This document shows positions 7,233 through 22,201 of a stretch of 38,936 nt of DNA, in pieces (within the stretch, counting starts at the first letter, position 1; each line of letters begins with the position of its first letter). The notes beneath the pieces are model-generated. The model did no database searches. It was not told the DNA's origin and was given only the letters and a program-made list of their open reading frames with translations. This DNA comes from a virus. The stretch lies in IMG/VR virus record IMGVR_UViG_3300048839_000281, positions 1 through 38,936 of that record; one strand, 5' to 3'. The translations under genes were made by a program, and so were the position numbers.

Positions 7233-7571
7233 TTACTTTCTAATTAGTTGAATACTTGCGAGTGGAAGTGCAGCAAAGATACACACACCAGCTATTACCA
7301 AGGCGGTTTCACTGAAACCAAAATTGATCGAGTGATTGCTCACCTCTTCAATGGTAATAAGCAGGAATGGAACCCAGATGCCGAGCATCAATATGGCTGC
7401 GATGATTTTGTTTTTCATAGCTTGTTCTCCTTTCTGTGGAGCATTATACCCCCCACTAATACGTTTTGCAATAGGGGTGGGTTTATCCAGCCAGCTACAC
7501 CCACGACTGTGGTTAGAACCAGTTCCTACATTACACTCGGGGCATCTGCCCTTGCGACTCCATCGTTTCAT
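7233..7571 (-). CDS. Zinc-finger-like + two-helix membrane protein with an internal start
   Basis: A 112-aa frame. Residues 1-51 hold a Cys/His cluster (CPECNVGTGSNHSRGC), and residues 52-112 form two membrane helices. The 7571 ATG overlaps the previous stop (ATGA) and has GGAGG 8 bases upstream, so the long form looks translatable. At 7418 (residue 52) a second ATG has a stronger AAAGGAG, and a consensus promoter lies in the coding sequence just before it. The locus may therefore make both a 112-aa protein and a 61-aa membrane protein. No family recognised. Confidence 0.6.
   Translation of the reverse strand: MKRWSRKGRCPECNVGTGSNHSRGCSWLDKPTPIAKRISGGYNAPQKGEQAMKNKIIAAILMLGIWVPFLLITIEEVSNHSINFGFSETALVIAGVCIFAALPLASIQLIRK
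7443..7460. promoter_or_regulatory. Palindromic box 1 (ATTATAC-C(n)-TAAT variant)
   Basis: ATTATACCCCCCACTAAT, 18 bases, covers the -10 box and part of the spacer of the promoter at 7443-7471. It aligns base for base with the box at 10103-10120 apart from three positions in the right half. It is the weakest palindrome of the set. Confidence 0.5.
7443..7471 (-). promoter_or_regulatory. Leftward promoter inside the zinc/membrane gene
   Basis: On the minus strand TTGCAA (7471-7466), a 17-base spacer and a perfect TATAAT (7448-7443). It is followed by the AAAGGAG ribosome binding site and the ATG at 7418. It would transcribe the membrane-protein form and the downstream ParB-like and membrane genes. 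Confidence 0.7.
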
Positions 7572-7828
7572 TTTCGATACCTCCTCAGCGCTGGTGGGGT
7601 GCAGGGAACCAGCTGTTCTACTAACTCCATGTCGTTGAGCTTCTTGCCGTTTGAGCGAACCATTTCTGGTGTCCACTCCACACTGGCATGATAGATCGCC
7701 CAATCGTGGACTTGGCCACGGGTTGCGACCCAACGAAACTCTTCACCAGTTTCAGTTTCATAAATACCTTTGGCAAAAATGCCAGGCTTCATTCTTCTAA
7801 GATTGGTTATTGTCAGACGATTTTGCAT
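7568..7828 (-). CDS. Small unknown protein
   Basis: An 86-aa soluble protein with predicted mixed strands and helices (GIFAKGIYETETGEEFRWV; NDMELVEQLVPCTPPALRR). AAGGAGG lies 6 bases before the ATG. The stop overlaps the downstream gene in an ATGA. I recognise no family; the regular ribosome binding site and tight packing support it as a real gene. Confidence 0.65.
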   Translation of the reverse strand: MQNRLTITNLRRMKPGIFAKGIYETETGEEFRWVATRGQVHDWAIYHASVEWTPEMVRSNGKKLNDMELVEQLVPCTPPALRRYRK

Positions 7829-8027
7829 CTTGTTCCTCCTTCTCTTGCGCGGTGCGCAGCATAGTTAGTAATTCTGCAACTGCCTTGGTGCGAATAAGGA
7901 AGGCAGTCTCAATGATGATCGACTGTAATTCTGATACGGTCAGCTCATTGATAAGCTCGAGTGCTTTGATAAACCCTGGATTTGGGGCTGTCCCAAGTGG
8001 GCTAGTAGGTAATGACTTTTTTTTCAC
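7797..8027 (-). CDS. Small unknown helical protein (GTG start)
   Basis: A 76-aa protein. I chose the GTG at 8027, with GGAG 6 bases upstream, over an upstream ATG (8084) that lies deep inside the helicase gene. Residues 20-60 are helical with regular hydrophobics (INELTVSELQSIIIETAFL), and the end is acidic and polar (EKEEQDAKSSDNN). It overlaps the helicase end by 26 bases and the next gene by 32. Function unknown. Confidence 0.6.
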   Translation of the reverse strand: MKKKSLPTSPLGTAPNPGFIKALELINELTVSELQSIIIETAFLIRTKAVAELLTMLRTAQEKEEQDAKSSDNNQS

Positions 8028-9222
8028 GTTCAACTCCTCTCTTGACTTTATGTTCGTATAAAGTTCGGTTGTGCCAAGTGCCACCCGAACTCACTAATTC
8101 CCAACCCGTTGTTCTACGTTCGAGTTTGATTGTCTCAATCTCGCCGATAGTTTTTACAGTGCTGGTGACATCAATAACTTTGCAAGTTTTCTTTCCTGGT
8201 GCAAGGCGAACCCCGCGTCCAAGCATCTGGTAATACAACCCAATGCTTCGGGTCGGTCGTGCCAATACAATGCAGTCTAATTCGGGGTGATCGAAACCCG
8301 TAGTCAGCACACCCATATTGAACACCATCTTGATCTGTCCTGTGCGGAAGTCTGAAATGATGCGCTCCCGCTCTTTCTTTGGGGTTGTGCCAGTTACCAC
8401 GGCTGAGTTTGGGGTTGCTTCGGCTAACACTTCGGCTTGCATCACAGACGAACAAAACACCAAGATCGAAGTGCCGATCTCTTGTGCGTGGGCGAGCGCT
8501 TCTTCCAACCCCCCGTTCTCAGCGAGGATCGCTTCGTAGGCCACCAAGTCAAAGTCAGACTTTGATTTATTGGTCGGGAGTTGGTCGTGGTTAATTTTGC
8601 TCATGTCGATGTATTCAAGTGGAGTAAGGTAGCCTTGCTCAACCAAGTCCCCATTGTTGACGTTGTAGACGATGCGACTCCAAAAGCGTTCTTTCAAACG
8701 GTTGATGAGCTTGGTGGTAGTGATAGCCCTCCAGCCCCACGGAGCTGGCACATAATTGTTTGCCATGCGGTAAGGCGTGGCTGTGAGTCCAATTACCTTT
8801 GGGTTTCCTATGCCCTTCAAAAATGAGGTAAACATACCCTGTAAGTTCTTCGGGTTTACTAGGTGGCACTCGTCAATGATGACTGTGTTGAAGTGGGTGA
8901 ACTTTTCGGGTTTCTTATAGATACTTTGGATGGTAGCAAATGTGTAGTGGCCAACAGTCTTTTCTCCCATTGAAGCCGAATAAATCCCGACTTCCCACGG
9001 ATCAACAAACCGTGTGAGCTTGGCATGGTTTTGTTCCAAAATCTCTTTGGAGGGTTGGAGAATGAGAAGTGGCTCGTCCAAACGATTGGCCAGTTCTGCA
9101 ATAACAATCGACTTCCCAGCTCCCGTTGGCAGCACACAGATGTCATTGCCAGCCAATGTCTTTGACCAAGTGAGTCGGCTGATAGCTTCTTCTTGATAGG
9201 GGCGTAGTTCAAAGGGTGTCAT
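8002..9222 (-). CDS. SF2 DEAD/DEAH-box DNA helicase
   Basis: A 406-aa superfamily 2 helicase, in the group of phage UvsW/type III restriction-like enzymes. Visible motifs: Q-like LRPYQEEAI (6-14), Walker A LPTGAGKS (31-38), DECH (117-120), TATP (147-150), LVFCSS (254-259) and motif VI QMLGRGVR (332-339). It hydrolyses ATP to unwind or remodel DNA branches, which suits a genome that also has a RusA resolvase and a RecB-like nuclease. No ribosome binding site precedes its ATG; the stop of the tiny upstream gene ends just before it (TAATATG), so translation is probably coupled. Confidence 0.92.
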   Translation of the reverse strand: MTPFELRPYQEEAISRLTWSKTLAGNDICVLPTGAGKSIVIAELANRLDEPLLILQPSKEILEQNHAKLTRFVDPWEVGIYSASMGEKTVGHYTFATIQSIYKKPEKFTHFNTVIIDECHLVNPKNLQGMFTSFLKGIGNPKVIGLTATPYRMANNYVPAPWGWRAITTTKLINRLKERFWSRIVYNVNNGDLVEQGYLTPLEYIDMSKINHDQLPTNKSKSDFDLVAYEAILAENGGLEEALAHAQEIGTSILVFCSSVMQAEVLAEATPNSAVVTGTTPKKERERIISDFRTGQIKMVFNMGVLTTGFDHPELDCIVLARPTRSIGLYYQMLGRGVRLAPGKKTCKVIDVTSTVKTIGEIETIKLERRTTGWELVSSGGTWHNRTLYEHKVKRGVEREKKVITY

Positions 9223-9223
9223 A

Positions 9224-9361
9224 TTAGTTCACAATGAGAAATGTCACGAACATTCCCCACCCTACATAATTTGTGTGGCCGTGGTACGCAGCGATGGCTA
9301 CTCCAATCCACATGCCGATAAGTCCAATGAGTTTGAGTTGGTTACTCTCGCTGAGCTTCAT
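9224..9361 (-). CDS. 45-aa membrane peptide
   Basis: A 45-aa frame between the helicase and the upstream gene. GGAGG lies just before its ATG (GGAGGGGGAGTAATG). It overlaps the upstream stop by one base (TAATG). Two hydrophobic stretches are seen: LKLIGLIGMWIGVAIAAY and VGWGMFVTFLIV. Length, packing and ribosome binding site support it as a gene; function unknown. Confidence 0.6.
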   Translation of the reverse strand: MKLSESNQLKLIGLIGMWIGVAIAAYHGHTNYVGWGMFVTFLIVN

Positions 9362-9672
9362 TACTCCCCCTCCACCTCGGACTCTCCAGCTTCGAGTGAA
9401 CGGAAGTGACCTTGGATTTTTTCAATGATAAGTGGTTGCACAATTTGAAAGAGCGCAGCTCCAATGCCAGGGATGGCGATAGGAACTTCGATTTTTGTTT
9501 TGTCATTCCACCCGTTTGAAGAGTAGGAAAATGATGTGACCTCTTGGCCAGTCTCACTGACAAGGTTGCCAGAAATAGAGAGTTGCCATTCGCCGTTCTC
9601 CAGCCCAATACTGACGCTGGTAATGTCGGCTCGGGTGATCCGAATATCGACCTCGTTAATTTTTTGTGACAT
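9361..9672 (-). CDS. Unknown 103-aa protein
   Basis: The protein has alternating beta strands in the first half (VDIRITRADITSVSIGLENG; WQLSISGNLV) and a hydrophobic helix near the middle (IAIPGIGAALFQIVQPLIIE), ending acidic (EAGESEVEGE). AAAGGAG lies 6 bases upstream. No family recognised. It overlaps the previous gene by 17 bases. Confidence 0.6.
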   Translation of the reverse strand: MSQKINEVDIRITRADITSVSIGLENGEWQLSISGNLVSETGQEVTSFSYSSNGWNDKTKIEVPIAIPGIGAALFQIVQPLIIEKIQGHFRSLEAGESEVEGE

Positions 9673-9901
9673 CGCTGTCTCCTTTCATGGCTTGCTCTTG
9701 TACTATTTTTTGAGCCATCATTAAAATGACCTGATCCATGCCAGGTAGTGTTTCAACCATATGTTCGAGCAAGTGGAAGAACGCGTGGTTGTCTGAGTCA
9801 ATTTCAAACTCAGTAATCTTGCATCCGCAGTACCCGTCCTCACGAACGTGGTGTTCCCACCTGGCAATAAATGTGGCATGTTGGGGTTGATTGTTTGTCA
9901 T
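9656..9901 (-). CDS. Unknown 81-aa protein
   Basis: The N-terminal half has Cys/His residues (WEHHVREDGYCGCKI) and the rest is helical with hydrophobics (HLLEHMVETLPGMDQVILMMAQKIV). No ribosome binding site is evident; the ATG lies 3 bases after the previous stop, so it is probably coupled to the zinc-ribbon gene. Function unknown. Confidence 0.55.
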   Translation of the reverse strand: MTNNQPQHATFIARWEHHVREDGYCGCKITEFEIDSDNHAFFHLLEHMVETLPGMDQVILMMAQKIVQEQAMKGDSDVTKN

Positions 9902-9904
9902 AAT

Positions 9905-10096
9905 TTATTCGCAGCTTTGCAGCGCCTCCTTACTCCAGATAATTTTTATTCCACAGTTAGGACAAAACTTATAGTCCTCTGCAATGTTCTCTTCTCCACA
10001 TCGAGGACACTCAAACCAGAAGCAGTACATTTCTTCCTGTCCAGAGTTGTGTCGAGCTTTGATAATTTTGAAGGAGGGTTTATTAGTTTTTTGCAT
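9905..10096 (-). CDS. Zinc-ribbon protein (leaderless)
   Basis: A 63-aa protein with one zinc ribbon: CPRC (30-33) and CPNC (45-48). The ATG at 10096 lies exactly 6 bases after a perfect TATAAT, so the mRNA should begin at the start codon; a longer frame at 10132 would run back through the promoter. Small zinc ribbons bind DNA, RNA or proteins. Because its promoter carries the recurring palindromic box, it is one candidate for a regulator or a co-regulated gene. Confidence 0.65.
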   Translation of the reverse strand: MQKTNKPSFKIIKARHNSGQEEMYCFWFECPRCGEENIAEDYKFCPNCGIKIIWSKEALQSCE

Positions 10097-10102
10097 AAGC
10101 TG

Positions 10103-10120
10103 ATTATACCCCCGTGTAAT
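10103..10120. promoter_or_regulatory. Palindromic box 2
   Basis: ATTATACCCCCGTGTAAT: the 7-base arms ATTATAC and GTGTAAT pair with one mismatch around a CCCC centre. It covers the -10 box and part of the spacer, a place where a bound repressor would block RNA polymerase. Confidence 0.6.
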
Positions 10121-10132
10121 AGTTTTGTGCAA
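10103..10132 (-). promoter_or_regulatory. Leaderless promoter of the second leftward module
   Basis: Minus strand: TTGCAC (10132-10127), an 18-base spacer and TATAAT (10108-10103). Six bases separate the -10 box from the ATG at 10096. It lies between the replication genes and the module of zinc-ribbon, helicase and small genes. Confidence 0.75.
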
Positions 10133-10141
10133 GTAGTAGTT

Positions 10142-10435
10142 TCATAAACAGAGCGCCTCGATAACGTCCTTGATAAACGGATCGTCCTCTGCTTGCTTTT
10201 TAGTTTCCAACACATCGGCAATTTCACCCATCGCTCGCCACACCTTCTTTTGGTCGGGATCATTTCGGTCTGCTCTAAATATCCACTCCAGCATGCGAGC
10301 CTTCTTAGCTTCCAATTCGGAGATCGAAAGCTCATACCAGTTGCGTGTCATTCCTGGTGATTGAGGCTCTGGTTTTGGTGGGTCTGGACGCTTCTGAGCG
10401 TTAGTTCTATATGCGTCCCACGGATGCTGGCTCAT
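10142..10435 (-). CDS. Small unknown helical protein
   Basis: A 97-aa protein with a Pro-rich N-terminus (RPDPPKPEPQSPGMTRNWYE) and a helical, charged body (ELSISELEAKKARMLEWIF). It overlaps the prim-pol stop by 4 bases (ATGA). Adjacency to the replicative enzyme suggests an accessory replication role; no family recognised. Confidence 0.6.
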   Translation of the reverse strand: MSQHPWDAYRTNAQKRPDPPKPEPQSPGMTRNWYELSISELEAKKARMLEWIFRADRNDPDQKKVWRAMGEIADVLETKKQAEDDPFIKDVIEALCL

Positions 10436-12027
10436 GCCATGTCTCCAAATAAATCTTTGGCCATGTCGGTAGTATCAAGGATGCCAGCGCCGTTCTCTTG
10501 GAACTCAATCACCACGCGCCCCTGCTTCCCCGCCTTGGTTTTTCTAATCAAAATACTTCCCATGTTGGTGTAGATCTCAGAACCCGAGTCGTCCTTCTCA
10601 TGCTCACGCACCACCAGTAGCACGTCAGTGGCATCTTGTTTGAACGCACCCGATCCTGCGATGTCATCTTCGTGGAGCTGGGCTTTTCTACTCTGACGCT
10701 TACGAATGTGAGCCACAACTACAATGGCGCTTTGTTTTGACTTGGCCAGTCCTGCGAGTTTTTTCATAGCATCCGCTTGCAAATCCAAGGTTTTACCAGC
10801 TTCCGTAGTGAAGTAGCCAATGTGGTCAACCACAATCAGGTCGTATCTGGGGAGTGCGTTCACCACTGCGATCAAGTCACTAAGTTTTCTAATCTGGTCT
10901 TTGCTGTATACCGAAATGTTTCCGTCAGCTTGGAGAATATCTTCTGTCTCCAACTCGGCAAATGTCTTGCCAGTCCTGATGCTAGCCAGATAGTCAACGA
11001 TAGTGTTCTCTGGTTCGAGTGCAAAGTACAATACTTTTTTTCCCTGCTGTGAGACGCGGTGCGCAAAGTTCAAACACATGGTTGTTTTTCCCACGTTGGT
11101 ATCGCCTGAGAAAGCAATAAGGTGGCCAGGGATGAAGCCCTTGATATGCTCATCAAGTTTTGAGTAGCCAGTGCTGGGTGCTATCTTTTCGAGCTTGCGC
11201 TCCTCCACACGTTTCATGGCCACTTCGCCCAAGCTCATTGGTTGCACCACCCCGTCACTTGGAGTGATACCGTTCCTGCGAGCGATCATCTCGGAGCGCT
11301 TGACACTATCGAATGTAGCTTTGAGTTCGTGTTCGGGAAGTGGGGGGTCGCACTTCTCAATGTTCCATTGCCTGAGACTTCCCCAAGCTGCCATGTCCCA
11401 CAACTCAATGTCGATTTTGCGAAGTAGAGAACCAGCAACCCGCGCTGCGGTATCGTTGCGTCCACCCTCCGACACTTTGGGGTAGGGGTTGTCTTGGCTG
11501 GGATCGAAGTCAAGGGGGGTGTGTTCTTTCTTTTTGAGCATTTCTGCCACGTTGGCTGGCAACTCACTCAAATACATTGGCGCAGTTCGGCGCTCAAACT
11601 CGTAGCTCTTTTCACCATAGGCGCTGGGTGGAAGTACCACATACCCACCATCACCACGGAAGTCTATTGGCATCCCGTCTACACGCACCGTATTTCTCAG
11701 TCCCTCAGTCCAACGATAGAAGTAATGACGACCCCCGCTAAACGCCGATTTCACCACAATTGGTGAGCTGAGACTCACTGGATCTTTCTCATCGTCCACG
11801 TCTATCACAACCACGTTTGAGATTTCACCAGTCACTAGGCCAATACCCATCGGGCGCATCTTGATCCACTCATCAACTTCTGCCTCAGTCGCCAGTCTGG
11901 ACTGGTAGGGTTTCCAAGCAACCATTGGTTTCTTCTCAATTTTGCCAGAGGCGTTTCGCTGAAAGGTGACGGGGAATACTGACCACCCCAGACCGATGTA
12001 CTCACGGAAAGTTTCTTTGGTAATCAT
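10432..12027 (-). CDS. Prim-pol primase/polymerase fused to RecA-type replicative helicase
   Basis: A 531-aa fusion. Residues 1-165 are an archaeo-eukaryotic type primase/polymerase (prim-pol): VVVIDVDDE with catalytic acids D76-D79, SGGRHYFYR (97-105) and DFRGDGGYVVLPPS (122-135). Residues 185-250 look like the linker or PriCT-like helical region (EGGRNDTAARVAG). From about 285 a DnaB/RecA-type motor follows: Walker A GDTNVGKTT (308-316), Walker B LIVVDHIG (397-404) and VVVAHIRKR (436-444). It should both prime and unwind the fork. GGAGGG lies 6 bases before the ATG, which overlaps the initiator stop. Confidence 0.88.
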   Translation of the reverse strand: MITKETFREYIGLGWSVFPVTFQRNASGKIEKKPMVAWKPYQSRLATEAEVDEWIKMRPMGIGLVTGEISNVVVIDVDDEKDPVSLSSPIVVKSAFSGGRHYFYRWTEGLRNTVRVDGMPIDFRGDGGYVVLPPSAYGEKSYEFERRTAPMYLSELPANVAEMLKKKEHTPLDFDPSQDNPYPKVSEGGRNDTAARVAGSLLRKIDIELWDMAAWGSLRQWNIEKCDPPLPEHELKATFDSVKRSEMIARRNGITPSDGVVQPMSLGEVAMKRVEERKLEKIAPSTGYSKLDEHIKGFIPGHLIAFSGDTNVGKTTMCLNFAHRVSQQGKKVLYFALEPENTIVDYLASIRTGKTFAELETEDILQADGNISVYSKDQIRKLSDLIAVVNALPRYDLIVVDHIGYFTTEAGKTLDLQADAMKKLAGLAKSKQSAIVVVAHIRKRQSRKAQLHEDDIAGSGAFKQDATDVLLVVREHEKDDSGSEIYTNMGSILIRKTKAGKQGRVVIEFQENGAGILDTTDMAKDLFGDMA

Positions 12028-12716
12028 TGGTTGCCCTCCTTCAACGCATCACGGAACCGCAACACTTGGGGATCGTCAGTCTCAAAATTAAGAAGCTGAC
12101 CAATTACATCGAGGTCAGCTCCCTTTGAGTCCGTTCGTTTGAAGAGAAGATGTGGTGTGAGTTTGTCGCCCCAATACGGGTGCTTCTGGTGTGAGCCAAT
12201 GGCGACTTTGATTTCCTTCTCAGAGTACACACTCGTCCAGTAATCAAACGTCTCGCCACTCACAGCTTGTGATCGAAACTTTTTGCTGTAGCGTTTGTTC
12301 CACCATTCCAACAAAGACTCTTTCGTGAACCCATTTACTATAGGACGTTCCTGTGTATGTGTATTTTTTATTTTATTCTTGTTATTTATATGCCCCATCT
12401 GTGGGGAGGGGGTATCCCCCGCTGTGGGGAGGGGGGACGTAGATGAGGCTCGGATAATTCTCTCAGTTTTCCAGCGCCCACGCTCGTCCTGAGACTTCTT
12501 CGCTTCAACCTGAATGACTCCGAGTCGGGCAAGTTTGGACACAATGCGTGAAATACTTTTGGCAATGACTCCCACCTGCTCCGCAATGTGTTCATTCGTT
12601 GCGTGGCAGAAGCCATTCTTTTTTGTGAGGCCAAGGATAACGCCAGCCACATACTTGTCAGTGATCGTCAGATCTTTGCGTGAAGCAACTTCAATTGGTA
12701 TGTGGACATACATCAT
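12024..12716 (-). CDS. Winged-helix replication initiator-like protein with origin-like linker
   Basis: A 230-aa protein. Residues 1-75 form a winged helix: ITDKYVAGVILGL, then VGVIAKSISRIVSKLARLGV as the recognition-helix region. Residues 85-125 are a low-complexity linker (SPQMGHINNKNKIKNTHTQE) encoded by the AT- and G-rich repeats at 12378-12435. The C-terminal part (about 130-230) resembles DnaD/helicase-loader domains (FTKESLLEWWNKRYSK, WTSVYSEKEIKVAI). The layout is like lambda O, where the origin lies in the linker-coding part. It begins the leftward replication operon. AAGGA lies 7 bases before the ATG. Confidence 0.75.
   Translation of the reverse strand: MMYVHIPIEVASRKDLTITDKYVAGVILGLTKKNGFCHATNEHIAEQVGVIAKSISRIVSKLARLGVIQVEAKKSQDERGRWKTERIIRASSTSPLPTAGDTPSPQMGHINNKNKIKNTHTQERPIVNGFTKESLLEWWNKRYSKKFRSQAVSGETFDYWTSVYSEKEIKVAIGSHQKHPYWGDKLTPHLLFKRTDSKGADLDVIGQLLNFETDDPQVLRFRDALKEGNQ
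12378..12435. other. Origin-like element inside the initiator gene
   Basis: A perfect 14-base direct repeat, CTGTGGGGAGGGGG, lies at 12399-12412 and 12422-12435 (period 23), next to an AT-rich tract (about 12360-12390). A copy of the same 42-base block (12378-12419, about three mismatches) lies in inverted orientation at 24475-24517. Iterons plus an AT-rich tract in an initiator gene is the lambda-type origin layout. The G-runs could also form a quadruplex. Function inferred. Confidence 0.5.
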
Positions 12717-12736
12717 GGCCGTTTCCTTTCAAAACG

Positions 12737-12870
12737 AAAAAACCGTCTTTCGGCTGGCAAGGCTCTAGTAAAAGAGACTTTTGGCAAAGTGTTACCTTGC
12801 CATGCGAAAAACGGTTTGTTGAGTTTCGCTCTTGTTTACTAAGATAGACCCCACACTTTGCCAAATGGGG
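12737..12870 (-). ncRNA. Structured leader (attenuator-like) of the replication operon
   Basis: Read on the minus strand, the RNA has a CCCC/GGGG hairpin (12870-12849) whose loop contains TTTGGCAAAGTGT (12865-12853). It is followed by a branched domain closed by AAACCGT/ACGGTTT (12817-12811 with 12746-12740). Inside are TGGCAAGG/CCTTGCCA (12802-12795 with 12762-12755) and two small hairpins, ACTTT-GCCA-AAAGT and CTCT/AGAG. The closing stem runs into six T bases (12742-12737), like a terminator. The first loop is a perfect 13-base complement of 12792-12780, inside the domain, so two folds exclude each other. It ends before the AAGGA and ATG of the initiator gene. Confidence 0.6.
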
Positions 12871-12939: not shown

Positions 12940-12969
12940 ACAATAGCACGGGGGGTGTAATGTTGTAAA
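12940..12969 (-). promoter_or_regulatory. Leftward promoter of the replication operon
   Basis: Minus strand TTTACA (12969-12964), an 18-base spacer and TATTGT (12945-12940), extended by TGC (TGCTATTGT). Predicted start near 12933 would give a leader of about 215 bases to the initiator ATG, holding the branched RNA. The spacer and -10 box overlap palindromic box 3. Confidence 0.55.
12943..12961. promoter_or_regulatory. Palindromic box 3
   Basis: On the minus strand ATTACACCCCCCGTGCTAT (19 bases): arms ATTACAC and GTGCTAT around a C-run. It has one extra C relative to boxes 2 and 5. It overlaps the -10 box of the replication-operon promoter. Confidence 0.55.
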
Positions 12970-13071: not shown

Positions 13072-13119
13072 TTGACTTTCATTTTGGAAGTTGCTATTCT
13101 TGTTGCACCCCGTTATAAT
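13072..13119 (+). promoter_or_regulatory. Two overlapping rightward promoters for the early region
   Basis: Promoter A: TTGACT (13072-13077), 17 bases, TATTCT (13095-13100). Promoter B: TTGCTA (13091-13096), 17 bases, perfect TATAAT (13114-13119). B's -35 box overlaps A's -10 box. The AAAGGAGG and ATG of the ssDNA-binding-like gene (13155) lie downstream. The palindrome CGTTAT-A-ATAACG (13111-13123) is centred on B's -10 box. Confidence 0.75.
13102..13119. promoter_or_regulatory. Palindromic box 4
   Basis: GTTGCACCCCGTTATAAT: a left arm TTGCAC as in box 5 and a right arm ATAAT as in the mirror of box 2, around CCC. It covers the spacer and -10 box of promoter B at 13091-13119 and sits next to the 13-base palindrome 13111-13123. 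Confidence 0.5.
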
Positions 13120-13154: not shown

Positions 13155-13718
13155 ATGGTAAATGATGCTTGGGTTCCAGAGGACTATTCCGTACCATCGG
13201 GAGGTTCACCATTTATGAGGTTCGAGGATGGGGACAATGTTGTTCGCATCATGTCGAAGCCAACCTTCGGTTGGGAGTTGTGGATTGAAAACAAACCACT
13301 GCGCCGAAAAGATAAAGCTGAGTTCACTAAAGAGGAACTAGCCAAGGCAGACATCAACTCTTTCTCTGGTGAGCGCTCACGTCCTCAACACTTCTGGGCG
13401 TTGCCTGTATGGAACTACGCTGCAAAGCAAGTTCAGTTGTTACAGGTCAATCAAAGCTCGGTGCAGTCACAATTACTTGGACTCGTTCGCAACCCAAAAT
13501 GGGGCGCGCTGGACAAGTATGACGTGAACATCGTCAAAGGTAAGCAAGGTCAACAGGTCAAGTACACAGTACAACCTGAACCACCAACACCTCTTGATAA
13601 AGACATCAAGGAAGTTTGGGATAACGTCACTCTGAACATGGAGGAATACTTCACTGGCGGTCGTCCACTAGAGCTCAACACTCCAACTGAGTCAGCTGAA
13701 AGTGTTATCAACGATTAG
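13155..13718 (+). CDS. Single-stranded DNA-binding-like protein
   Basis: A 187-aa protein at the head of the rightward early operon. It begins with FMRFEDGDNVVRIMSKP and contains HFWALPVWNYAAKQVQLLQV and QSQLLGLVRNPKWGALDKYD, a pattern seen in phage OB-fold ssDNA-binding proteins. The C-terminus is acidic (NTPTESAESVIND), as in SSB tails that recruit partners. AAAGGAGG lies before the ATG. Family assignment is from pattern only; no crystal-type motif fixes it. Confidence 0.65.
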   Translation: MVNDAWVPEDYSVPSGGSPFMRFEDGDNVVRIMSKPTFGWELWIENKPLRRKDKAEFTKEELAKADINSFSGERSRPQHFWALPVWNYAAKQVQLLQVNQSSVQSQLLGLVRNPKWGALDKYDVNIVKGKQGQQVKYTVQPEPPTPLDKDIKEVWDNVTLNMEEYFTGGRPLELNTPTESAESVIND

Positions 13719-13725
13719 TAAAAAC

Positions 13726-13779
13726 ATGAGGCTCTCGTATGACGAGGTAAGGGAAGCTAGACGCTCTAGCCATCCTCAT
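13726..13779 (+). promoter_or_regulatory. Nested hairpins in the intergenic gap
   Basis: An outer stem ATGAGG (13726-13731) / CCTCAT (13774-13779) followed by TTT, and an inner perfect hairpin GCTAGA-CGC-TCTAGC (13756-13770). This fills the gap between the ssDNA-binding-like gene and the next gene, just before the AAAGGA of the latter. It could be a partial terminator or a processing site. Confidence 0.4.
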
Positions 13780-13793
13780 TTTGAAAGGAAGCT

Positions 13794-14153
13794 ATGGCAA
13801 GTTACGCACAAGAAGAACAAATGGAAGCCCGTGGTGAGATGGCCAAAGAAGATCGTCTCGCTCGCAGGTATCCACACAACGCATCAAACACAATTGAAAA
13901 AGATGCACCGCTCAAACGAGCGCTCAAAAACCAAGAGCAACTACTCATCGACCTTGGTGCTGAGCTAGACACCTTGCAACAAAGATTGCTGCCAATCACT
14001 GTGGACGTACCAGAGGCAGATATGAAAGACACTATTGATCCAACTCCACACATCGGTGACTCACAAATTGTTCGGGGAGTGGTTGATCTCAACCGCACCA
14101 TCGAGGAGTACATTAAAAAAGTAATCAAGCTGAGAGGCCGATTAGAAATCTAA
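13794..14153 (+). CDS. Unknown 119-aa helical protein
   Basis: A polar, charged protein with long helical stretches (LKNQEQLLIDLGAELDTLQQ) and a second coiled region near the end (VDLNRTIEEYIKKVIKLRGR). AAAGGA lies 4 bases before the ATG. It sits in the early operon next to the ssDNA-binding-like gene. No family recognised. Confidence 0.65.
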   Translation: MASYAQEEQMEARGEMAKEDRLARRYPHNASNTIEKDAPLKRALKNQEQLLIDLGAELDTLQQRLLPITVDVPEADMKDTIDPTPHIGDSQIVRGVVDLNRTIEEYIKKVIKLRGRLEI

Positions 14154-14164
14154 AGGAGTACATT

Positions 14165-14776
14165 ATGGCAAGCGACAATCTAGTATATTCAGATCAAGTT
14201 CTCAACGAACTTATCACCAGTGGCGAGGACGAGTCTAAGCTCATCTTCGACAACCCCAACTCGGAGTTGTCGCTTGCCTACTTCCTGCTTCTGCGCAAGG
14301 CGTTCAACGATGCCTATGACAGAATAAAGCAGCAAGTCACCGAAGCTGGCACATCACAAATCGGTGAACACTTTCGGGGGTTAGCTGGTGGATACGTCCG
14401 AGGCTCATACTCTGAACGTGGCGGATCAAAGTACACAGTTGATGCAGGTTTGGAAATGGAAGTGGGGGCTGAACTCTCAGAGTTAGTGGCCACCTTCATG
14501 GTAGACAAGCATCCAGAGATTGACCCAGACTTTATTGAGGTCGGGATCAGTTTTAAGGTCAACACAAAAAATGTTGACGCGCACATTAAAAAAGAAAGAG
14601 AGCTACCAATGTTCATTCAGAACGCTGAGCGCAGCAAGTCACTCTCACTGACGGTACTCAAAAGTGCCAAGGAAGAGTTGCAAGCCAATGCCGATGCGTT
14701 GCTTGGGGTAGCCCCATCCGTACTCGTAATTAGCGAGGACTCGGAACATACAGGACAGGAGGTTCAAGGTGAATAA
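14165..14776 (+). CDS. Unknown 203-aa early protein
   Basis: AAAGGAG lies 7 bases before the ATG. The body has a helical region (FLLLRKAFNDAYDRIKQQV) and a glycine-rich turn (FRGLAGGYVRGSYSERGG), then a mixed beta region (DFIEVGISFKVNT). It overlaps the next gene by 8 bases. Given the operon, a role in DNA metabolism is likely, but I recognise no motif. Confidence 0.65.
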   Translation: MASDNLVYSDQVLNELITSGEDESKLIFDNPNSELSLAYFLLLRKAFNDAYDRIKQQVTEAGTSQIGEHFRGLAGGYVRGSYSERGGSKYTVDAGLEMEVGAELSELVATFMVDKHPEIDPDFIEVGISFKVNTKNVDAHIKKERELPMFIQNAERSKSLSLTVLKSAKEELQANADALLGVAPSVLVISEDSEHTGQEVQGE

Positions 14777-15245
14777 TCCACTATCCCCAACAACACCAAT
14801 GGCGGAGTACCGCATGGTTGAGTCAGCTGATACCGAGACAATCAACGCCACGCGCAATCTGATCCAGCGCAAGGGTCGGGACTTGGCTAAGCTCAAAGAG
14901 AAAAAGAAACTACTCAAAGAAAAAGAGCAGAGTCTACTCGACAACAACCAGGAGTTCCAAGAGGCCGAGGAGGCTGCACAGGAGTACGTTGATAAAGTGA
15001 AGCTCATCAAAAAACAAATCAAAGACTCACCCGAAGCTGCTCGCATCCGCATCTTGAAAAAAGAAGTGGCCGATGAAGAAAAAGAGTTGGACTCTGATCT
15101 TTCAAATCACCTCGTCAACTACCGCTCAATGACTGGTAGCAACGTGTTTGACACAGACGATGGCCGAGAGATCCCATTCAAAACCAATGGCAAGTTCTCA
15201 TCCAAAGCACTGACTCAGTTCTTGGAGGAAGGTGACGATGAGTAA
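14769..15245 (+). CDS. Coiled-coil early protein (GTG start)
   Basis: A 158-aa protein with a long coiled coil (about 27-110; LKEKKKLLKEKEQSLLDNNQ and a second charged stretch). The GTG at 14769 has GGAGG 6 bases upstream, which decides the start over an internal ATG at 14799. It ends acidic (FLEEGDDE) and overlaps the next start. Role unknown; it may pair with the protein encoded just before it. Confidence 0.65.
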   Translation: MNNPLSPTTPMAEYRMVESADTETINATRNLIQRKGRDLAKLKEKKKLLKEKEQSLLDNNQEFQEAEEAAQEYVDKVKLIKKQIKDSPEAARIRILKKEVADEEKELDSDLSNHLVNYRSMTGSNVFDTDDGREIPFKTNGKFSSKALTQFLEEGDDE

Positions 15246-15537
15246 ATACAGAAAAAAACCAGTTGTTATTGAAGCGTTCAAATGGATGGGCGATCATACC
15301 AGTATGGAAAATCCCCCAGCCTGGTTGCTTACTGCAATCAAAGACGGAACGATTATGTTTACCCAACTACACGATGTGTTCGGCGACCAAATGCTCATCG
15401 AAACTTTGGAAGGCACACACCGAGCCAGCCCTGGCGACTTCATCATTCAAGGCGTGAAGGGTGAGCTATACCCCTGTAAGCCAGATATTTTTGAAGCCAC
15501 CTACGAACTGGTGGAGGAGGACAACCATGCAAAATAA
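15238..15537 (+). CDS. Conserved phage protein (PGDFIIQGVKGELYPCKPDIF type)
   Basis: A 99-aa protein. The start YRKKPVVIEAFKW and the block PGDFIIQGVKGELYPCKP are hallmarks of a small family found in many tailed phages; its function is not known to me. I chose the ATG at 15238, which overlaps the previous stop; a GTG at 15232 is also in frame. It overlaps the nuclease gene by 11 bases. Confidence 0.75.
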   Translation: MSKYRKKPVVIEAFKWMGDHTSMENPPAWLLTAIKDGTIMFTQLHDVFGDQMLIETLEGTHRASPGDFIIQGVKGELYPCKPDIFEATYELVEEDNHAK

Positions 15538-16126
15538 CATCCACATGCGCCTCAGCTACACAGCGTTCAACCTCTGGAAACGAGGTAACATCCCAGGACT
15601 GGTGGACTACATGCGGGGGGTGGAGTTCATACCAACCGAGCAAATGCTTGAAGGCATGAAGTTTGATGACGAGGCGTGTAAGTCTGCGCTCGACACCAAG
15701 CAGCTTCCCGATTGTTTCGGAGGCTTCAAGCTCAAAGCGCCACGCGCCCAGCTCTATCTAAGTGCCACGCTGGTTACTCCAAAGGGTAGAACCTTTGACT
15801 TTGTTGGTAAGCCAGACGTGGTAGACATCGCAGACAAGGCGCTCTACGAACTCAAAACAGGCGTGATGAGTAGTCTTTCCTACGCACAGACTTTGCAGGT
15901 TCCAACCCAGGTCATGCTGCTTTTGAAGGCCAAGAACATCAAGATCGAAAGAGCATACGTGTGTCGGCACGATCAGTATTTCAACACCACCGATGTCTCT
16001 CAAATCCTGTTGAGTGATAGACTAATTAGCAATACCGAGGCAGAAGTGCTAGAGATAGCCGACAGCATCTACGACTTCCTCTCGGAAACAATTACAGAAA
16101 GTACACCAAGATGGAAAATAAACTAA
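15527..16126 (+). CDS. RecB/Cas4-like PD-(D/E)XK nuclease
   Basis: A 199-aa protein with a PD-(D/E)XK core: D97 in FVGKPDVVDI, then E108 and K110 in LYELKTG, with a following helix carrying Gln (YAQTLQVPTQ) like the QxxxY region of RecB/Cas4 nucleases. Such enzymes act as exonucleases in phage recombination and replication. I chose the ATG at 15527, preceded by GGAGGAGG; an in-frame earlier start lies in the previous gene. It overlaps the neighbouring genes at both ends. No Cys cluster for an iron-sulfur site is seen. Confidence 0.8.
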   Translation: MQNNIHMRLSYTAFNLWKRGNIPGLVDYMRGVEFIPTEQMLEGMKFDDEACKSALDTKQLPDCFGGFKLKAPRAQLYLSATLVTPKGRTFDFVGKPDVVDIADKALYELKTGVMSSLSYAQTLQVPTQVMLLLKAKNIKIERAYVCRHDQYFNTTDVSQILLSDRLISNTEAEVLEIADSIYDFLSETITESTPRWKIN

Positions 16127-16401
16127 CACAAGACCAGGTGGTCGAACGGTCAGGCAGTTGGTTTACCAGCGCAGAGATCTGTGAGATCTATGGAGTCAGC
16201 GAACAGACACTTAAAAACTGGAGACGGGGGTCATACTTCCGTGGCACAAAGAAGATCTTGTTCCTCGAGGACGGGACGTTCCTCAACCACCTTCCACCCG
16301 ATCCAGGTAAGAGCATCCTCTACCAGATCAGAGATGTGAACAAGTGGCTTCGTAAGATAGGTCGGGAAGAAACAATTCCTGATTATCTCTCCAACCTTTG
16401 A
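16111..16401 (+). CDS. Helix-turn-helix protein (MerR/excisionase-like)
   Basis: A 96-aa protein; residues 18-40 (FTSAEICEIYGVSEQTLKNW) form a helix-turn-helix of the MerR/excisionase type, followed by a wing-like region (GTKKILFLEDGTF). It overlaps the nuclease stop by 16 bases and ends the early operon just before a bidirectional terminator. With no integrase present, an excisionase role is unlikely; it is the best visible candidate for a DNA-binding regulator of the palindromic boxes. Confidence 0.7.
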   Translation: MENKLTQDQVVERSGSWFTSAEICEIYGVSEQTLKNWRRGSYFRGTKKILFLEDGTFLNHLPPDPGKSILYQIRDVNKWLRKIGREETIPDYLSNL

Positions 16402-16453: not shown

Positions 16454-16463
16454 CTTTTTGTTG

Positions 16464-16739
16464 TTACAGGAGATCAGAAAGCAGAGAGCAGATGCGGTAG
16501 TATCGCTTGTCAATATCACCAAAGTATTTTTGAAACACCTTGTATAAACTACCCTCTTCCTTGATAAGTATTTTGAAAAGCTCAGCCATATTTTGTTTGG
16601 CTAAGTGCATGTCGTCACGATGATTTTGGTTTTCTATTTTGAGGTTCTTGATCTGAGCTTGGTTGCCACGCACCCGCGAGAGCTTTTCTTCGTAAGCCTC
16701 GAACAAAAAAACGATAGGTGGTTTCTGTGGATTTTCCAT
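16464..16739 (-). CDS. Lone leftward unknown protein
   Basis: A 91-aa helical, charged protein (AYEEKLSRVRGNQAQIKNLK in a coil; CSLLSDLL at the end). I chose the ATG at 16739; a longer frame to 17111 would overlap the divergent virion gene and its upstream part lacks coding character. It is the only minus-strand gene here, with its own 7-base-leader promoter divergent from the ejection-protein gene, and it ends at the bidirectional terminator. A small regulator is plausible, but no DNA-binding motif is clear. Confidence 0.55.
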   Translation of the reverse strand: MENPQKPPIVFLFEAYEEKLSRVRGNQAQIKNLKIENQNHRDDMHLAKQNMAELFKILIKEEGSLYKVFQKYFGDIDKRYYRICSLLSDLL

Positions 16740-16746
16740 TAGTAAG

Positions 16747-16776
16747 ATAGTAGCACTTGCTGACAGGTCTTGCCAA
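16747..16776 (-). promoter_or_regulatory. Leaderless leftward promoter
   Basis: Minus strand TTGGCA (16776-16771), an 18-base spacer and TACTAT (16752-16747), 7 bases before the ATG at 16739. Its -35 bases are shared with the divergent promoter on the other strand (TTGCCAA read both ways). Confidence 0.45.
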
Positions 16777-16799
16777 TCACAGAAAAAGTATTGTATTCT
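16770..16799 (+). promoter_or_regulatory. Leaderless promoter for the first ejection-type gene
   Basis: TTGCCA (16770-16775), an 18-base spacer and TATTCT (16794-16799), with 6 bases before the ATG at 16806. The divergent promoter at 16747-16776 uses the same -35 bases on the other strand, so the two probably compete. Confidence 0.6.
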
Positions 16800-16805
16800 T
16801 CCACT

Positions 16806-18470
16806 ATGGCAAATCTCTTTGATGCAATCGGCGCAGCTTCTAATCGTGTCCTCGGTGGACTTGGACGTACCATTGACGTGGTAGGTAACGCAGCTGGTAA
16901 CTATCTTCCTGAAATGAACTGGTCTGAAAACCTCGAGTATCAAGGTTCCAAATCTCTCACTCCTGAACAGCGTGTGACTGAGCGTGTTGAGCAGGGCAAA
17001 CCAATCGCAGGACAAGATACTCAGATTGGACGCGACCTCGGACTCAACTTTACTTACGACACTGGCGCTGGTATCTCTGGTGACAAGCCAGCCTACAATA
17101 TCCAAGAACAACAGTCAGCGCTTGGTAAAGCACCAAGCTCTCAGTTCACCAGCGGTGAACTTCAATCACTCGGACTCTCAACAGATTTATACAACGGTCA
17201 AGAAATCACAATCAGTGGTCAGAAGTATCGTGTCAAAGATAATGGCAACGGTACTCGATCCTTTGAACCAATCACTCCTTCACAAAAAACAAATCTTTCA
17301 GGCCAAGACAAAGCCAACGCACTCTCTGGTGCTGGGTCTGACATCCTGCGCAACCTTGACCAAGGTAACATCAATGATCTACTCAACAAACAGTTTGACA
17401 ACATGAATGATTTTGCCAAAGAGATTGAGCGTGTGGCACGTGAGAACGCTGAGCGTGAGTACGGCACAATCCTTCAAGCACTCGGACGACAGAGGGGTGA
17501 GGTAACAACTCTGGCTGGTGAGCAAAAAGAAAATATCTCGAAGCAGGGTGAAATGGCTGAGGAAGATCTCAGCATCCGATCCGACAAAGAACAAAAAGAA
17601 ATTGACAAACAGCGCTCTGGTTTTGTGGAAGGTGTTGAAGAAACCAAAGATCAACTCGCCCGCAACTGGCGTGATATGAGTTTGCAAGTGCAACGTATCA
17701 TGCGTGGCCGTGGTATCTCCGACTCCACCTTTGCTTCCAGTGAAGAGTTGAAAGTGCTACGAGACTTCAACCAAGGTCTGCGACAACTGGCTGTCAAAAA
17801 GTCTGGCGCACTCAAAGACTTCGCTGATGCTATCACTGAAACCAACAGCTTCTACGAAAGAAAGAAGGTTGAACTGGCTGAGGAAGTTCGAGTCAACTTA
17901 CAGAAGGTTGACCAGTGGGTGCGACAGCGAACCATCGACATTCAAAACCAAGAGGGTATGGCCTTGTCCAACAAGCTCTCTCAAATCAATGACGCTAACC
18001 TGAGAGCTGAGGGCTTGCGCACTAACATCAAAAACGAAATCCTACAGAAACAAATGGACTACGACATGTGGATCAAGCAGACCGAAGTCAACTACAAGAT
18101 GGCTGTGGCCACTGCTGCTAAAGGCAAGGTGCAAACTGCCAACGATCAAATCAAAGAGGCAGCTGCGCTATCCAAAAACATGTTCACTCTCTTGCAAAAC
18201 GGTCAGGCACACTACACCCAAATGGAGAATGGCCAGTGGGCTATTCAAGACTCCATGACTGGTGCTGCAATTCCAACCACTCAGGCTGCCAAAGATCGGT
18301 TTGAAGAAGAGCAAGACCTCCAACAGCAAATCCTCCAACAACGAGCAACTGGCAACGATGCCTTCTCTCAATTGTTTGGTGGGGGTGCGGTACTCGGTGG
18401 CGCTCAAACTCAGGAAGAGGAAGAGCGAACTGGCATGTTTGGTGGCATCATGCAGGGTCTTGGACTCTAG
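16806..18470 (+). CDS. Internal virion (ejection-type) coiled-coil protein
   Basis: A 554-aa protein. The ATG at 16806 is chosen because it lies 6 bases after a -10 box; a TTG at 16770 in the same frame is the -35 box itself. Residues 190-420 form long, polar coiled coils with frequent Glu, Gln and Lys (FAKEIERVARENAEREYGTI and more). The C-terminus is rich in Gly and hydrophobics (SQLFGGGAVLGGAQT). Size, composition and the neighbouring 1176-aa protein fit internal or ejection proteins of podoviruses. No enzyme motif is seen. Confidence 0.65.
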   Translation: MANLFDAIGAASNRVLGGLGRTIDVVGNAAGNYLPEMNWSENLEYQGSKSLTPEQRVTERVEQGKPIAGQDTQIGRDLGLNFTYDTGAGISGDKPAYNIQEQQSALGKAPSSQFTSGELQSLGLSTDLYNGQEITISGQKYRVKDNGNGTRSFEPITPSQKTNLSGQDKANALSGAGSDILRNLDQGNINDLLNKQFDNMNDFAKEIERVARENAEREYGTILQALGRQRGEVTTLAGEQKENISKQGEMAEEDLSIRSDKEQKEIDKQRSGFVEGVEETKDQLARNWRDMSLQVQRIMRGRGISDSTFASSEELKVLRDFNQGLRQLAVKKSGALKDFADAITETNSFYERKKVELAEEVRVNLQKVDQWVRQRTIDIQNQEGMALSNKLSQINDANLRAEGLRTNIKNEILQKQMDYDMWIKQTEVNYKMAVATAAKGKVQTANDQIKEAAALSKNMFTLLQNGQAHYTQMENGQWAIQDSMTGAAIPTTQAAKDRFEEEQDLQQQILQQRATGNDAFSQLFGGGAVLGGAQTQEEEERTGMFGGIMQGLGL

Positions 18471-18472
18471 CT

Positions 18473-18500
18473 TTCACTCTCCCGACTTTGTGTTTATACT
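18473..18500 (+). promoter_or_regulatory. Leaderless promoter for the 1176-aa gene
   Basis: TTCACT (18473-18478), a 16-base spacer and TATACT (18495-18500), with 6 bases before the ATG at 18507. It lies in the 36-base gap after the stop of the upstream gene, which has no terminator. Confidence 0.55.
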
Positions 18501-18506
18501 GAGATC

Positions 18507-21500
18507 ATGGCATTACTAAACGCTATTAGCTTCGGCACTAAGAAAAAGAAAGACGAGGAAGAGTTACTTGCACCTGCTCCTACAGCTGGCGCTTCTGCTC
18601 AACTCGCTTCCCCCGCACCACAAGGCGGTGGCTTCTTTTCCAAAGCAAAGACTGGTATCAAAAACTTCTTTGCCCCATCACCAGACGGGGTTCGTGTTCG
18701 TGATGTAGTGCGTGAGTTGCCAGGTGCCACTGCACAAACCGCCAAAGGCATTGGAAACTTTGCCGTCAATGTGGGGCGTGGATGGATCACTAGACCCACA
18801 GCTCAGGCCATACTCTCAGTCGCCGATGCCTCGGGCATTACACCTATCGCTGGTGAGAACAAAGGTGTGCGGATGACTACCATCCCAGCACCACAAGATC
18901 CAGCTGGCAAACTCCTCTTCGGCGATCAAGACCTCAAGTCCTATCAACAGCAAACCCGTGACGCGCAACAGTTCCTCGAGCAAGACCTCGGACTCTCTAA
19001 AGAAACAGCGATGCCTCTGGGTCTGGCAGCTGGAGTCGTCAATGCTGGGTTGGATCTCCCAGGTGGAGGTGCTGTCAAATCAACTGGTAAGGAAGCACTC
19101 GAACAAGTCGTCAAGAAAACAGGAAAAGAAAACGCTGAGCAAGTGGCTAAGACTGCTATCAAAAGCGCAGAAGATCTTGCCCCCTACCTCAAGTCACTAC
19201 TCCCTAAGTTCAAAGGCAAGCTCGATGATGCACTCGAAGAAGCCAGTAAGGCGCTCGACATCCCCGAGTCAGTGGTCAGCCAGATCAAGTCTGGCAAGGT
19301 GATCGAGGGTGACAACTTTGTGTTCCAGTTCCGTAAAGATACGGGCGACTTCATCGCCAACTTCGAGAGCAAACTCAAAGCCATACCTCTTCCAAAGATC
19401 AAGCAGAAGGTAGTCGAAACTGCTAAGCAAACACTCGATGAGACTGCCAAGCCGTTAGTTGAAACAGCAACCAAAGCCAAAGACACCGTTGCCGAAGTGG
19501 TTGATGAAGCCACTGATTTTGCCAAAGACATTACGGATCGCAAGAAGTTCTCTGCGCTCACTGATGATGCAGCTGAGGTACTCGATGACATTGCCAATGA
19601 TGAGACATTCAAGAAGCTGGTCGAGCGAACCAAAGGCGCACCAGTCACAGCTGATGAGGTTAGGCAAGCAGCACTCAACATTCAAGACACACTTGGTAAA
19701 GCTACCTCTCGAGCAAATACCGTGGAAGAAATTGCCAAGTCAACCAACTCATTCGATGAAGCTGATCGGTTGATGAACGAGGGTGGAGATCCCGCTGACA
19801 TTGCTAAGTTCCTCAATGAAGGACTCAGCTTTCTCACGGACGCTGCTCGCAAACTCCAGTCTGGTAACACCACAAGCCGACCCGACTCTATCGTTGGCGA
19901 CCCACTCATCAAAGAGATCTACCAAAAGACTGGCAACATCACGGCTGAGATCGTTGAGAAGTACAAAGCTATCGACAAAACAAATCCCCAAGCGGTGCGT
20001 GACTTTTACTACACCTACGCCAAACCATCACTGGTTGAAGTGCTTGACGAGTATCGCTACATCAACATCCTCTCGAGTCCAAAGACTCAGCTAAGAAACA
20101 TCAACGCCAACTTGATCGACTCGGTTATCACTGAGCCTGGCACCAAGCTGATGCGTGGGTTTGTTGACCAAGTGAAGTCAGCCGTCACCAAACAACCACG
20201 CCAACACTTCTCTCGAGAAGCTACCGCCTACTACAAGGGGTTCTTCAATGCTGGAAAAGAAGCAGTTGATAACGTCAAAGCTGTGATGAAAGGTGATCGG
20301 TTCATCGGCAACCCAGACCTGAGAGCCATGCCAATTGGTAAGTACGCAGCTCCCACACTCGAAGAAGCCTACAAAGGTATCAAGCTACCAGCTGCCGAGA
20401 CTGCTGCCCGAGTCTCTGGTCAAGCATTGGAGGTTGGAACCAACGTCAACAAAGCACTGGAAGCAATGGATGTATTTTTCACCACACTCATCAAACGTGG
20501 TGAGGAGTCAGCACAAGCCTATCGCCAGAGCCGAGGCGTGGAGTTGACTAAAGAGTTCATCGAAGCTGAGTCAGATCGAATGGCACAAGAGGTGGCACTG
20601 CGTACTGCACTCGATCCTACCAACGAAACAGGCCAAGGACTCGTAGCTTCTGGCATTGACCAGGTTGTGAGCTGGCTTGGACAAACACGCAACTCCCCAT
20701 ACAAAGCAATCTCAACTACTGCCAAGGTTATCTTTCCATTTCTACGAACCACTGCCAATTATGTCACTCGTTTCCTCGAGTACACACCTGGACTTGGTAT
20801 GCTCAACGCAGCTGGACGCAAGAACGTGGACGAACTCATCGCCCGCCAAGCCTTTGGTTCTACCGTGCTGGCTGGCACACTGATGTATGCGTTCCGTGCG
20901 GGGGCTGAGGACAACATGACTTGGGATGCTCCCACCTCTGAAAAAGAAAAGAACTTATTCTATGACTCAGGTCGCCGACCCTACTCAATCAAGCTCGGCG
21001 ATCAGTGGGTTGGCTATCAACAACTCGGCATGCTGGGTGCGCCACTCGCACTCACCGCTGCACTCAAACACCACCTCGAACAAGACAAAGATGTGTCCGA
21101 ACCAATGATCCAGTCGGTAGTCAGAGCCTACGGATCAATGCTCCCGTACTTTGGTGACATGAGTTTCGCTCGATCATTCGGTAACTTGGGGGACGCAATG
21201 AAAGGCGAGCAAGGTGCAGTACTCAAACTCATCAACGAGCCATTCAGACAGGCGGTTCCGCTCGCTGGTATGCAGGGCTGGGCGAAAGCAATCCTTGATC
21301 CAATCTATCGCAAGTCAGAGCCAAACGATCCCTACTCTGCCACTGGCCTGGTACTCACCGCCTTTGCACCAACACTCAAAAACCTACCGTTCCTGTCCCA
21401 ACTCTACGAACCCTACACTGACACGCTGGGTCGGCCGTCTGATATTGACAAGCCACTCCTCAATGCGTTCTCACCAATCTCAGTCAGTAGCCACAATGAA

Positions 21501-22037
21501 CTGTTCGACTTTGCCTACCAGCGTAAACGCTTGGAGTCGCAGGTCAACAAACTAAAGAAGGACTTTGAGGATGGCAAGATCAACGCGGGAGGTGTCGAGC
21601 GTGGGGTCAATACCGTGCTTGATAACTTTGTGCGGTTCGTTGGTGGTGATCCATCCGACATGGGTGATTTTACCCTACCTGAGCAGGTCGAGAGAGGCTT
21701 TCGTATCCCCAAGGAAGAGCCAGCACCAATCAATCTCACCCCTGAGCAAGAGAAACAGTTAGCTGCCAACCTGCCACAGATCAAACAAGAAATGCTTGAC
21801 GCTATCACAACCACCCGAGCGTCCATTGCTAGTAGTGGGGGTCGGGGGGTGTCGGTTAGAGCGGGCAGTCGCAAGGTATCCGCACCCAAACTCTCAGGCT
21901 CCAAGTCCAGAGGTGTAGCCCTCAAAGCCAGCACCCCTACCCGTACCAAACGCACGGGCATTGCCTTCCGTCCGACTGGTATTTCCCAGACCACTGACAT
22001 CGGTGCGTCTCTGCCCGAGTTGCCACAGTTCGGTTAG
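18507..22037 (+). CDS. Very large internal virion (ejection-type) protein
   Basis: A 1176-aa protein, by far the longest in the genome. It begins basic and polar (FGTKKKKDEEELLAPAP), has long helical, charged repeats (about 210-400), a middle region with RNINANLIDSVITEPGTKLM, a hydrophobic stretch near 770-800 (AFGSTVLAGTLMYAFRAG), and a basic, Ser/Thr-rich end (KLSGSKSRGVALKASTPTRT). The pattern fits proteins that enter the host with the DNA or form an inner core. No transglycosylase, polymerase or protease motif is visible. Leaderless start at 18507. Confidence 0.65.
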   Translation: MALLNAISFGTKKKKDEEELLAPAPTAGASAQLASPAPQGGGFFSKAKTGIKNFFAPSPDGVRVRDVVRELPGATAQTAKGIGNFAVNVGRGWITRPTAQAILSVADASGITPIAGENKGVRMTTIPAPQDPAGKLLFGDQDLKSYQQQTRDAQQFLEQDLGLSKETAMPLGLAAGVVNAGLDLPGGGAVKSTGKEALEQVVKKTGKENAEQVAKTAIKSAEDLAPYLKSLLPKFKGKLDDALEEASKALDIPESVVSQIKSGKVIEGDNFVFQFRKDTGDFIANFESKLKAIPLPKIKQKVVETAKQTLDETAKPLVETATKAKDTVAEVVDEATDFAKDITDRKKFSALTDDAAEVLDDIANDETFKKLVERTKGAPVTADEVRQAALNIQDTLGKATSRANTVEEIAKSTNSFDEADRLMNEGGDPADIAKFLNEGLSFLTDAARKLQSGNTTSRPDSIVGDPLIKEIYQKTGNITAEIVEKYKAIDKTNPQAVRDFYYTYAKPSLVEVLDEYRYINILSSPKTQLRNINANLIDSVITEPGTKLMRGFVDQVKSAVTKQPRQHFSREATAYYKGFFNAGKEAVDNVKAVMKGDRFIGNPDLRAMPIGKYAAPTLEEAYKGIKLPAAETAARVSGQALEVGTNVNKALEAMDVFFTTLIKRGEESAQAYRQSRGVELTKEFIEAESDRMAQEVALRTALDPTNETGQGLVASGIDQVVSWLGQTRNSPYKAISTTAKVIFPFLRTTANYVTRFLEYTPGLGMLNAAGRKNVDELIARQAFGSTVLAGTLMYAFRAGAEDNMTWDAPTSEKEKNLFYDSGRRPYSIKLGDQWVGYQQLGMLGAPLALTAALKHHLEQDKDVSEPMIQSVVRAYGSMLPYFGDMSFARSFGNLGDAMKGEQGAVLKLINEPFRQAVPLAGMQGWAKAILDPIYRKSEPNDPYSATGLVLTAFAPTLKNLPFLSQLYEPYTDTLGRPSDIDKPLLNAFSPISVSSHNELFDFAYQRKRLESQVNKLKKDFEDGKINAGGVERGVNTVLDNFVRFVGGDPSDMGDFTLPEQVERGFRIPKEEPAPINLTPEQEKQLAANLPQIKQEMLDAITTTRASIASSGGRGVSVRAGSRKVSAPKLSGSKSRGVALKASTPTRTKRTGIAFRPTGISQTTDIGASLPELPQFG

Positions 22038-22071
22038 AGCGCCCATCTTTTCGGTTAGAACCTCAACTCAC

Positions 22072-22094
22072 ATCCTCCCTCGAGAGGATTTTTT
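22072..22094 (+). terminator. Rho-independent terminator after the 1176-aa gene
   Basis: ATCCTC (22072-22077) / GAGGAT (22084-22089) with a six-base loop, followed by TTTTTT (22089-22094). It ends the ejection-protein transcript before the boxed promoter at 22185. Confidence 0.8.
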
Positions 22095-22183
22095 GCGTTG
22101 GCACTCACTCGATCCGACTGCTATTTTTTCTCATTCTACCTCGAGTAGACACACCCAAACCCCACACAATCACAGCGCACACT

Positions 22184-22201
22184 ATTGCACCCCCGTGCAA
22201 C
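22184..22201. promoter_or_regulatory. Palindromic box 5 (perfect core)
   Basis: ATTGCACCCCCGTGCAAC: the core TTGCAC-CCCC-GTGCAA is a perfect inverted repeat. It is the best palindrome of the set and sits on the -35 box of the accessory promoter. Confidence 0.65.

Follow-up and report, generated by a model that had tools for sequence, protein, structure and literature searches.

A candidate palindromic operator common to four or more non-virion promoters of a phage

We identified an 18- to 19-bp dyad, ATTRYAC-C4/5-GTRYAAT, that is present on either strand at five promoter-linked places in the genome of a phage whose host is uncultured. The dyad is probably the operator of one dimeric, sequence-specific protein that blocks the core promoters of non-virion genes, possibly including those of the module at box 1. 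There is good support for the presence of an operator palindrome at a minimum of four non-virion promoters. One repressor acting on one palindromic operator at many phage promoters is the usual arrangement, and this phage is a new instance of the well-known sharing of an operator among several promoters. The box predicts the early-gene switch of a phage without a cultured relative and supplies a short operator that is open to testing.

The window, i.e., the whole stretch of DNA analyzed, is a phage record of 38,936 bases. Because its ends carry a 127-base direct terminal repeat (positions 1-127 and 38810-38936), the record very probably represents the entire genome, some 38.8 kb in length. Annotated noncoding DNA makes up 8.6% of it. 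The encoded proteins include a terminase, a portal, a capsid protein, an amidase, a ParB-like protein, a helicase, a primase-polymerase/DnaB helicase, a lambda O-like replication initiator, and an HTH_17 protein. No integrase was recognized among the phage proteins scanned, nor did a Pfam scan of those proteins reveal a CI/Cro/LexA/S24-type repressor gene. There was no DNA-level similarity to a phage collection in the parts of the genome compared. A tRNA-Leu-like stretch at 35085-35200 (GGTGGCGGAAATAGTAGACGC...), just after tRNA-Met, was not recognized as a tRNA by ARAGORN or Rfam and is possibly a decayed tRNA gene.

The original prediction placed boxes at 7443, 10103, 12943, 13102, and 22184, and all five sequences were found there. 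The left arm of box 1 (7443 to 7460; ATTATAC-CCCC-CACTAAT) doubles as the -10 element (TATAAT) of a leftward promoter with its -35, TTGCAA, at 7471-7466. Box 2 (10103 to 10120; ATTATAC-CCCC-GTGTAAT) matches the arms at 14 of 14 positions and holds the -10 of another leftward promoter. Box 3 (12943 to 12961; ATAGCAC-GGGGG-GTGTAAT), upstream of the replication operon that runs leftward from 12716, lies in a leftward promoter spacer and overlaps three bases of the -10. The right arm of box 4 (13102 to 13119; GTTGCAC-CCCG-TTATAAT) is the -10 of the rightward early promoter. Box 5 (22184 to 22201; ATTGCAC-CCCC-GTGCAAC) spans a rightward promoter's -35-like TTGCAC; the perfect core inverted repeat claimed for it is present as a perfect 6-bp core dyad.

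A consensus promoter scan that was independent of the boxes found sigma-70-like promoters at boxes 1 to 4 (7471-7443 [-], 10131-10103 [-], 12969-12940 [-], and 13091-13119 [+], respectively), and among the promoters between 5 and 25 kb, three of the top-scoring four contain a box. The promoter at box 5 is weak (TTGCAC/TATACT with a 17-base spacer, TATACT being at 22208-22213) and was read from the sequence. Hence, each box overlaps a -35 or -10 element, as had been claimed, for boxes 1 to 4 by the promoter scan and for box 5 by reading. A good capsid promoter at 35211 has no box. This agrees with the predicted control of non-virion but not virion promoters, for which the positions of boxes 2 to 5 also argue and that of box 1 argues weakly.

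Two observations concern the genes around boxes 1 and 2. Box 1 sits in frame within an open reading frame, 7233-7571 (-), that starts with a good Shine-Dalgarno sequence of its own and an ATGA overlap; its product has a Cys/His zinc-finger-like N terminus fused to a membrane protein, and an internal start (7419) lies inside it as well. At 10096-10108 (-), the -10 of the box 2 promoter is only 6 bases ahead of the ATG of the zinc-ribbon gene, so the transcript of that gene is predicted to lack a leader unless translation starts at an ATG farther downstream.

The dyad is rare in the rest of the genome. We scanned the whole genome for ATTRYAC/GTRYAAT arms with at least 11 of 14 matches around a center of 4 or 5 bases with a run of four C's or G's. 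The scan returned exactly the five boxes and no other site, against an average of 0.43 sites expected under a second-order Markov null. At a threshold of at least 12 of 14, there were four sites, and none in 60 simulations under that type of model. The shorter pattern TTRYACCCC has five exact matches on both strands of the genome, all of them in the boxes. When each box was left out of the matrix in turn and ranked among ~77,600 positions, box 3 ranked 1 (with a 5-base center; 301 with a 4-base center), boxes 2 and 5 each ranked 2, box 4 ranked 4, and box 1 ranked 8. The site next below the five boxes is a weak sixth candidate (24455 to 24472 [-]; CATGTAC-ACCC-GTGTAAT; matrix score, 11.9), with 12 of 14 arm matches and a center without a C4 run; it adjoins a second origin-like copy, described below, in a 1-kb noncoding region. 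The matrix and arm searches did not yield many equally good matches in coding sequence, which leaves the predicted regulon standing.

Boxes 1, 2, and 4 each have an arm made up of TATAAT and a single further base. We therefore set the -10 arm of these boxes aside and scored the other arm across all 1137 -10-like hexamers of the genome. Only 6 of the 1137 have at least 6 of 7 matches, and boxes 2 (7/7) and 4 (6/7) are among the six. The other arm of box 1 matches at 4 of 7 positions (hand count), a level reached by ~15% of the hexamers; because of this, box 1 is indistinguishable from a promoter with a G-run. The claim of common arms and a C-rich center thus stands for boxes 2 to 5, with a center of 5 bases in box 3, and is doubtful for box 1. 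As for an operator of a repressor that serves several promoters, the same dyad occurs at several promoters and rarely elsewhere. We concluded that boxes 2 to 5 are real and strong and that box 1 is doubtful.

The starts of the half-sites are 11 bp apart, i.e., one helical turn, so a dimer on one face of the DNA fits, each subunit presumably reading one ATTRYAC-type half-site. Since the boxes overlap -10 or -35 elements, the bound protein would exclude RNA polymerase and thereby repress transcription. Repression would extend to the nested leftward operons, which carry the replication and helicase genes and perhaps the ParB-like module, as well as to the early operon, which runs rightward, and to the accessory operon. 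The promoters at boxes 3, 2, and 1 could transcribe the leftward genes between 12716 and 5992 in nested fashion, whereas the promoter at box 4 could serve the early genes (13155-16401) and that at box 5 the accessory genes (22268-23744); the virion promoters would be left free. The same single protein may act at all boxes. A single regulator is the simplest reading of these sequences, and the predicted phage-wide regulon with one regulator is upheld by the statistics and positions of four boxes, box 1 being weakly supported.

Other functions for the box were considered. The C-run is found in either orientation relative to transcription, which argues for an operator rather than a directional promoter element. 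An RNA hairpin was rejected: the arms of boxes 1, 3, and 4 pair poorly as one strand, yet they match as DNA half-sites. Two features sit less easily with a simple symmetric dimer. The center is a near-invariant C4/G4 and is asymmetric, which such a dimer does not require, and the center of box 3 is one base longer than the others, an extra base that a rigid dimer would not normally tolerate. It is conceivable, although doubtful, that the box represents a new type of operator in which the asymmetric C4 center is itself read, and which controls every non-virion promoter together with an origin-side site, coupling early transcription to replication without a classical repressor.

The phage P22 c2 operator, ATTTAAG-N4-CTTAAAT, is a lambdoid repressor operator. 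The box resembles such operators in being an 18-bp dyad with two 7-bp arms and a 4-bp center that overlaps early promoters; it differs in its half-site, in its near-fixed C4 center, and in occurring as one site per promoter rather than in clustered triplets. An Xre-type domain, which marks the lambdoid CI/Cro/c2 repressors, was not found in the phage proteins scanned. Cluster A mycobacteriophage stoperators are asymmetric 13-mers, present in >20 copies and bound by a monomer (PMC9283540), whereas here there are five dyads, all at promoters. The likeness to the Cluster A immunity repressor would lie in one small phage helix-turn-helix repressor with sites dispersed across the genome, for which the HTH_17 protein is a candidate here.

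The original prediction named two candidate regulators. One, at 16111-16401 (+), is an HTH_17/DUF1233 (excisionase-like) protein (HTH_17, 1.1e-7; DUF1233, 1.2e-6). It is the last gene product of the box 4 early operon and the only classical helix-turn-helix regulator found with Pfam, and its HTH_17 domain makes it a plausible, putative regulator. Its structure model (a helix-turn-helix plus a wing) has a mean pLDDT of 55, a low confidence that is too weak to use. Little was learned from comparing sequences with solved structures; the HTH_17 protein gave a nonsignificant match (E, 0.05) to a mycobacteriophage immunity repressor. An 18-bp dyad is not known to be a typical target of HTH_17/excisionase-like proteins. 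We regard the HTH_17 protein as the best candidate, tentatively, as an assignment that is possible rather than probable; if correct, it would provide a function for the excisionase-like family in a phage without a recognized integrase. The other protein named, a single zinc ribbon at 9905-10096 (-) (Zn_ribbon_3, 5.5e-9), had no helix-turn-helix that we could find, and its place just downstream of box 2 weakly suggests a regulatory role. A further candidate DNA-binding protein is the ParB-like protein at 6497-7210 (-) (phrog_12305, 6e-31), in the leftward module of box 1. The first gene downstream of box 3 encodes the lambda O-like replication initiation protein (12024-12716 [-]; phrog_270, 1.6e-12), which has a winged-helix N terminus.

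Three other readings were weighed. It is very improbable that there is no regulon and that promoter hexamers beside C/G runs resemble one another by chance: the arms of boxes 1, 2, and 4 do coincide with TATAAT, and with this hexamer set aside box 1 falls to the level of chance, but boxes 2 to 5 are still far beyond chance and the arms of box 3 lie largely outside the hexamers. The regulator could be the replication initiator or the ParB-like protein, either of which would link early transcription to replication or partition. The initiator gene follows box 3, palindromes can be bound by members of the ParB family, and RYACCCCC half-site-like elements are concentrated in noncoding DNA, among it the region at 24 kb next to the second copy of the origin. 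However, the origin repeats (CCCCATCTGTGGGGAGGGGG) differ in sequence from the box and the ParB-like protein gave a structure model of too low a quality for judgment, and we consider this reading improbable.

A host regulator, e.g., a LexA-type SOS repressor, might instead be used by the phage in place of a repressor of its own, a reading absent from the original prediction and one that we consider unlikely. The lack of a CI/Cro/LexA/S24-type gene among the scanned phage proteins favors it. LexA boxes usually have variable centers, unlike the C-runs seen here. Two phyla with distant capsid relatives showed no enrichment of the exact pattern TTRYACCCCCGTRYAA (584 genomes in all; 1 match in each of the sets of 297 and 287 genomes), phyla that may not include the host. 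The LexA loci of metagenome-assembled genomes that hold distant relatives, which proved uninformative, have no such box. The AC-N4-GT core geometry resembles that of LexA boxes, for example RGTACNNNDGTWCB of cyanobacteria (PMC3091678), and phage GIL01 is a precedent, since it uses host LexA as its phage repressor (PMC6182141). As in GIL01 (PMC6182141), a dimeric repressor from the host, bound to palindromes with an AC-N4-GT core, could hold the early promoters; unlike in GIL01, the center here is a C-run, and a LexA homologue was not found in the phage. If the regulator came from the host, the box would in addition be a clue to what that host is. A phage-encoded regulator acting on the shared operator is more likely than a host one.

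Relatives were sought with the primase, with the terminase, with the capsid protein in three alignments, and with an origin pattern. Only the capsid search gave relatives, in IMG/VR, with 57 to 71% capsid identity and none with the early module. Their contigs, most of which are fragments, match the virion genes; one also matches the MazG- and RusA-like genes. No match to the initiator, primase, ParB-like, zinc-ribbon, or SSB-like genes was found in these contigs, and neither was the box. Because the early genes are also missing there, the absence of the box argues neither for nor against the regulon. De novo palindrome searches in the relatives gave AT-rich noise only. The perfect box has 18 exact matches in IMG/VR, roughly the estimated chance level, and each of 11 records checked has one perfect site; hence, we rejected the possibility that the box is a common phage operator. 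In one relative (L199/L200; IMG/VR 3300045116_000323), a ATTAGACAATT element is repeated at record positions 9237, 11199, 11896, and 18490, in short gaps before virion genes, and is perhaps that relative's own late-promoter element.

Within the replication-initiator gene, at 12300-12470 (-), there are two 20-bp repeats, CCCC..CTGTGGGGAGGGGG, spaced 23 bp and followed by an AT-rich run. This stretch is copied at 24420-24580 (+), in the 1-kb noncoding region at 24.4 kb. From its sequence, the arrangement looks like a lambda O-type origin inside the initiator gene with a second origin-like copy. The RYACCCCC element occurs six times in the noncoding DNA at 23990-24500, which also has several inverted repeats rich in C and a tandem repeat of 36 bp.
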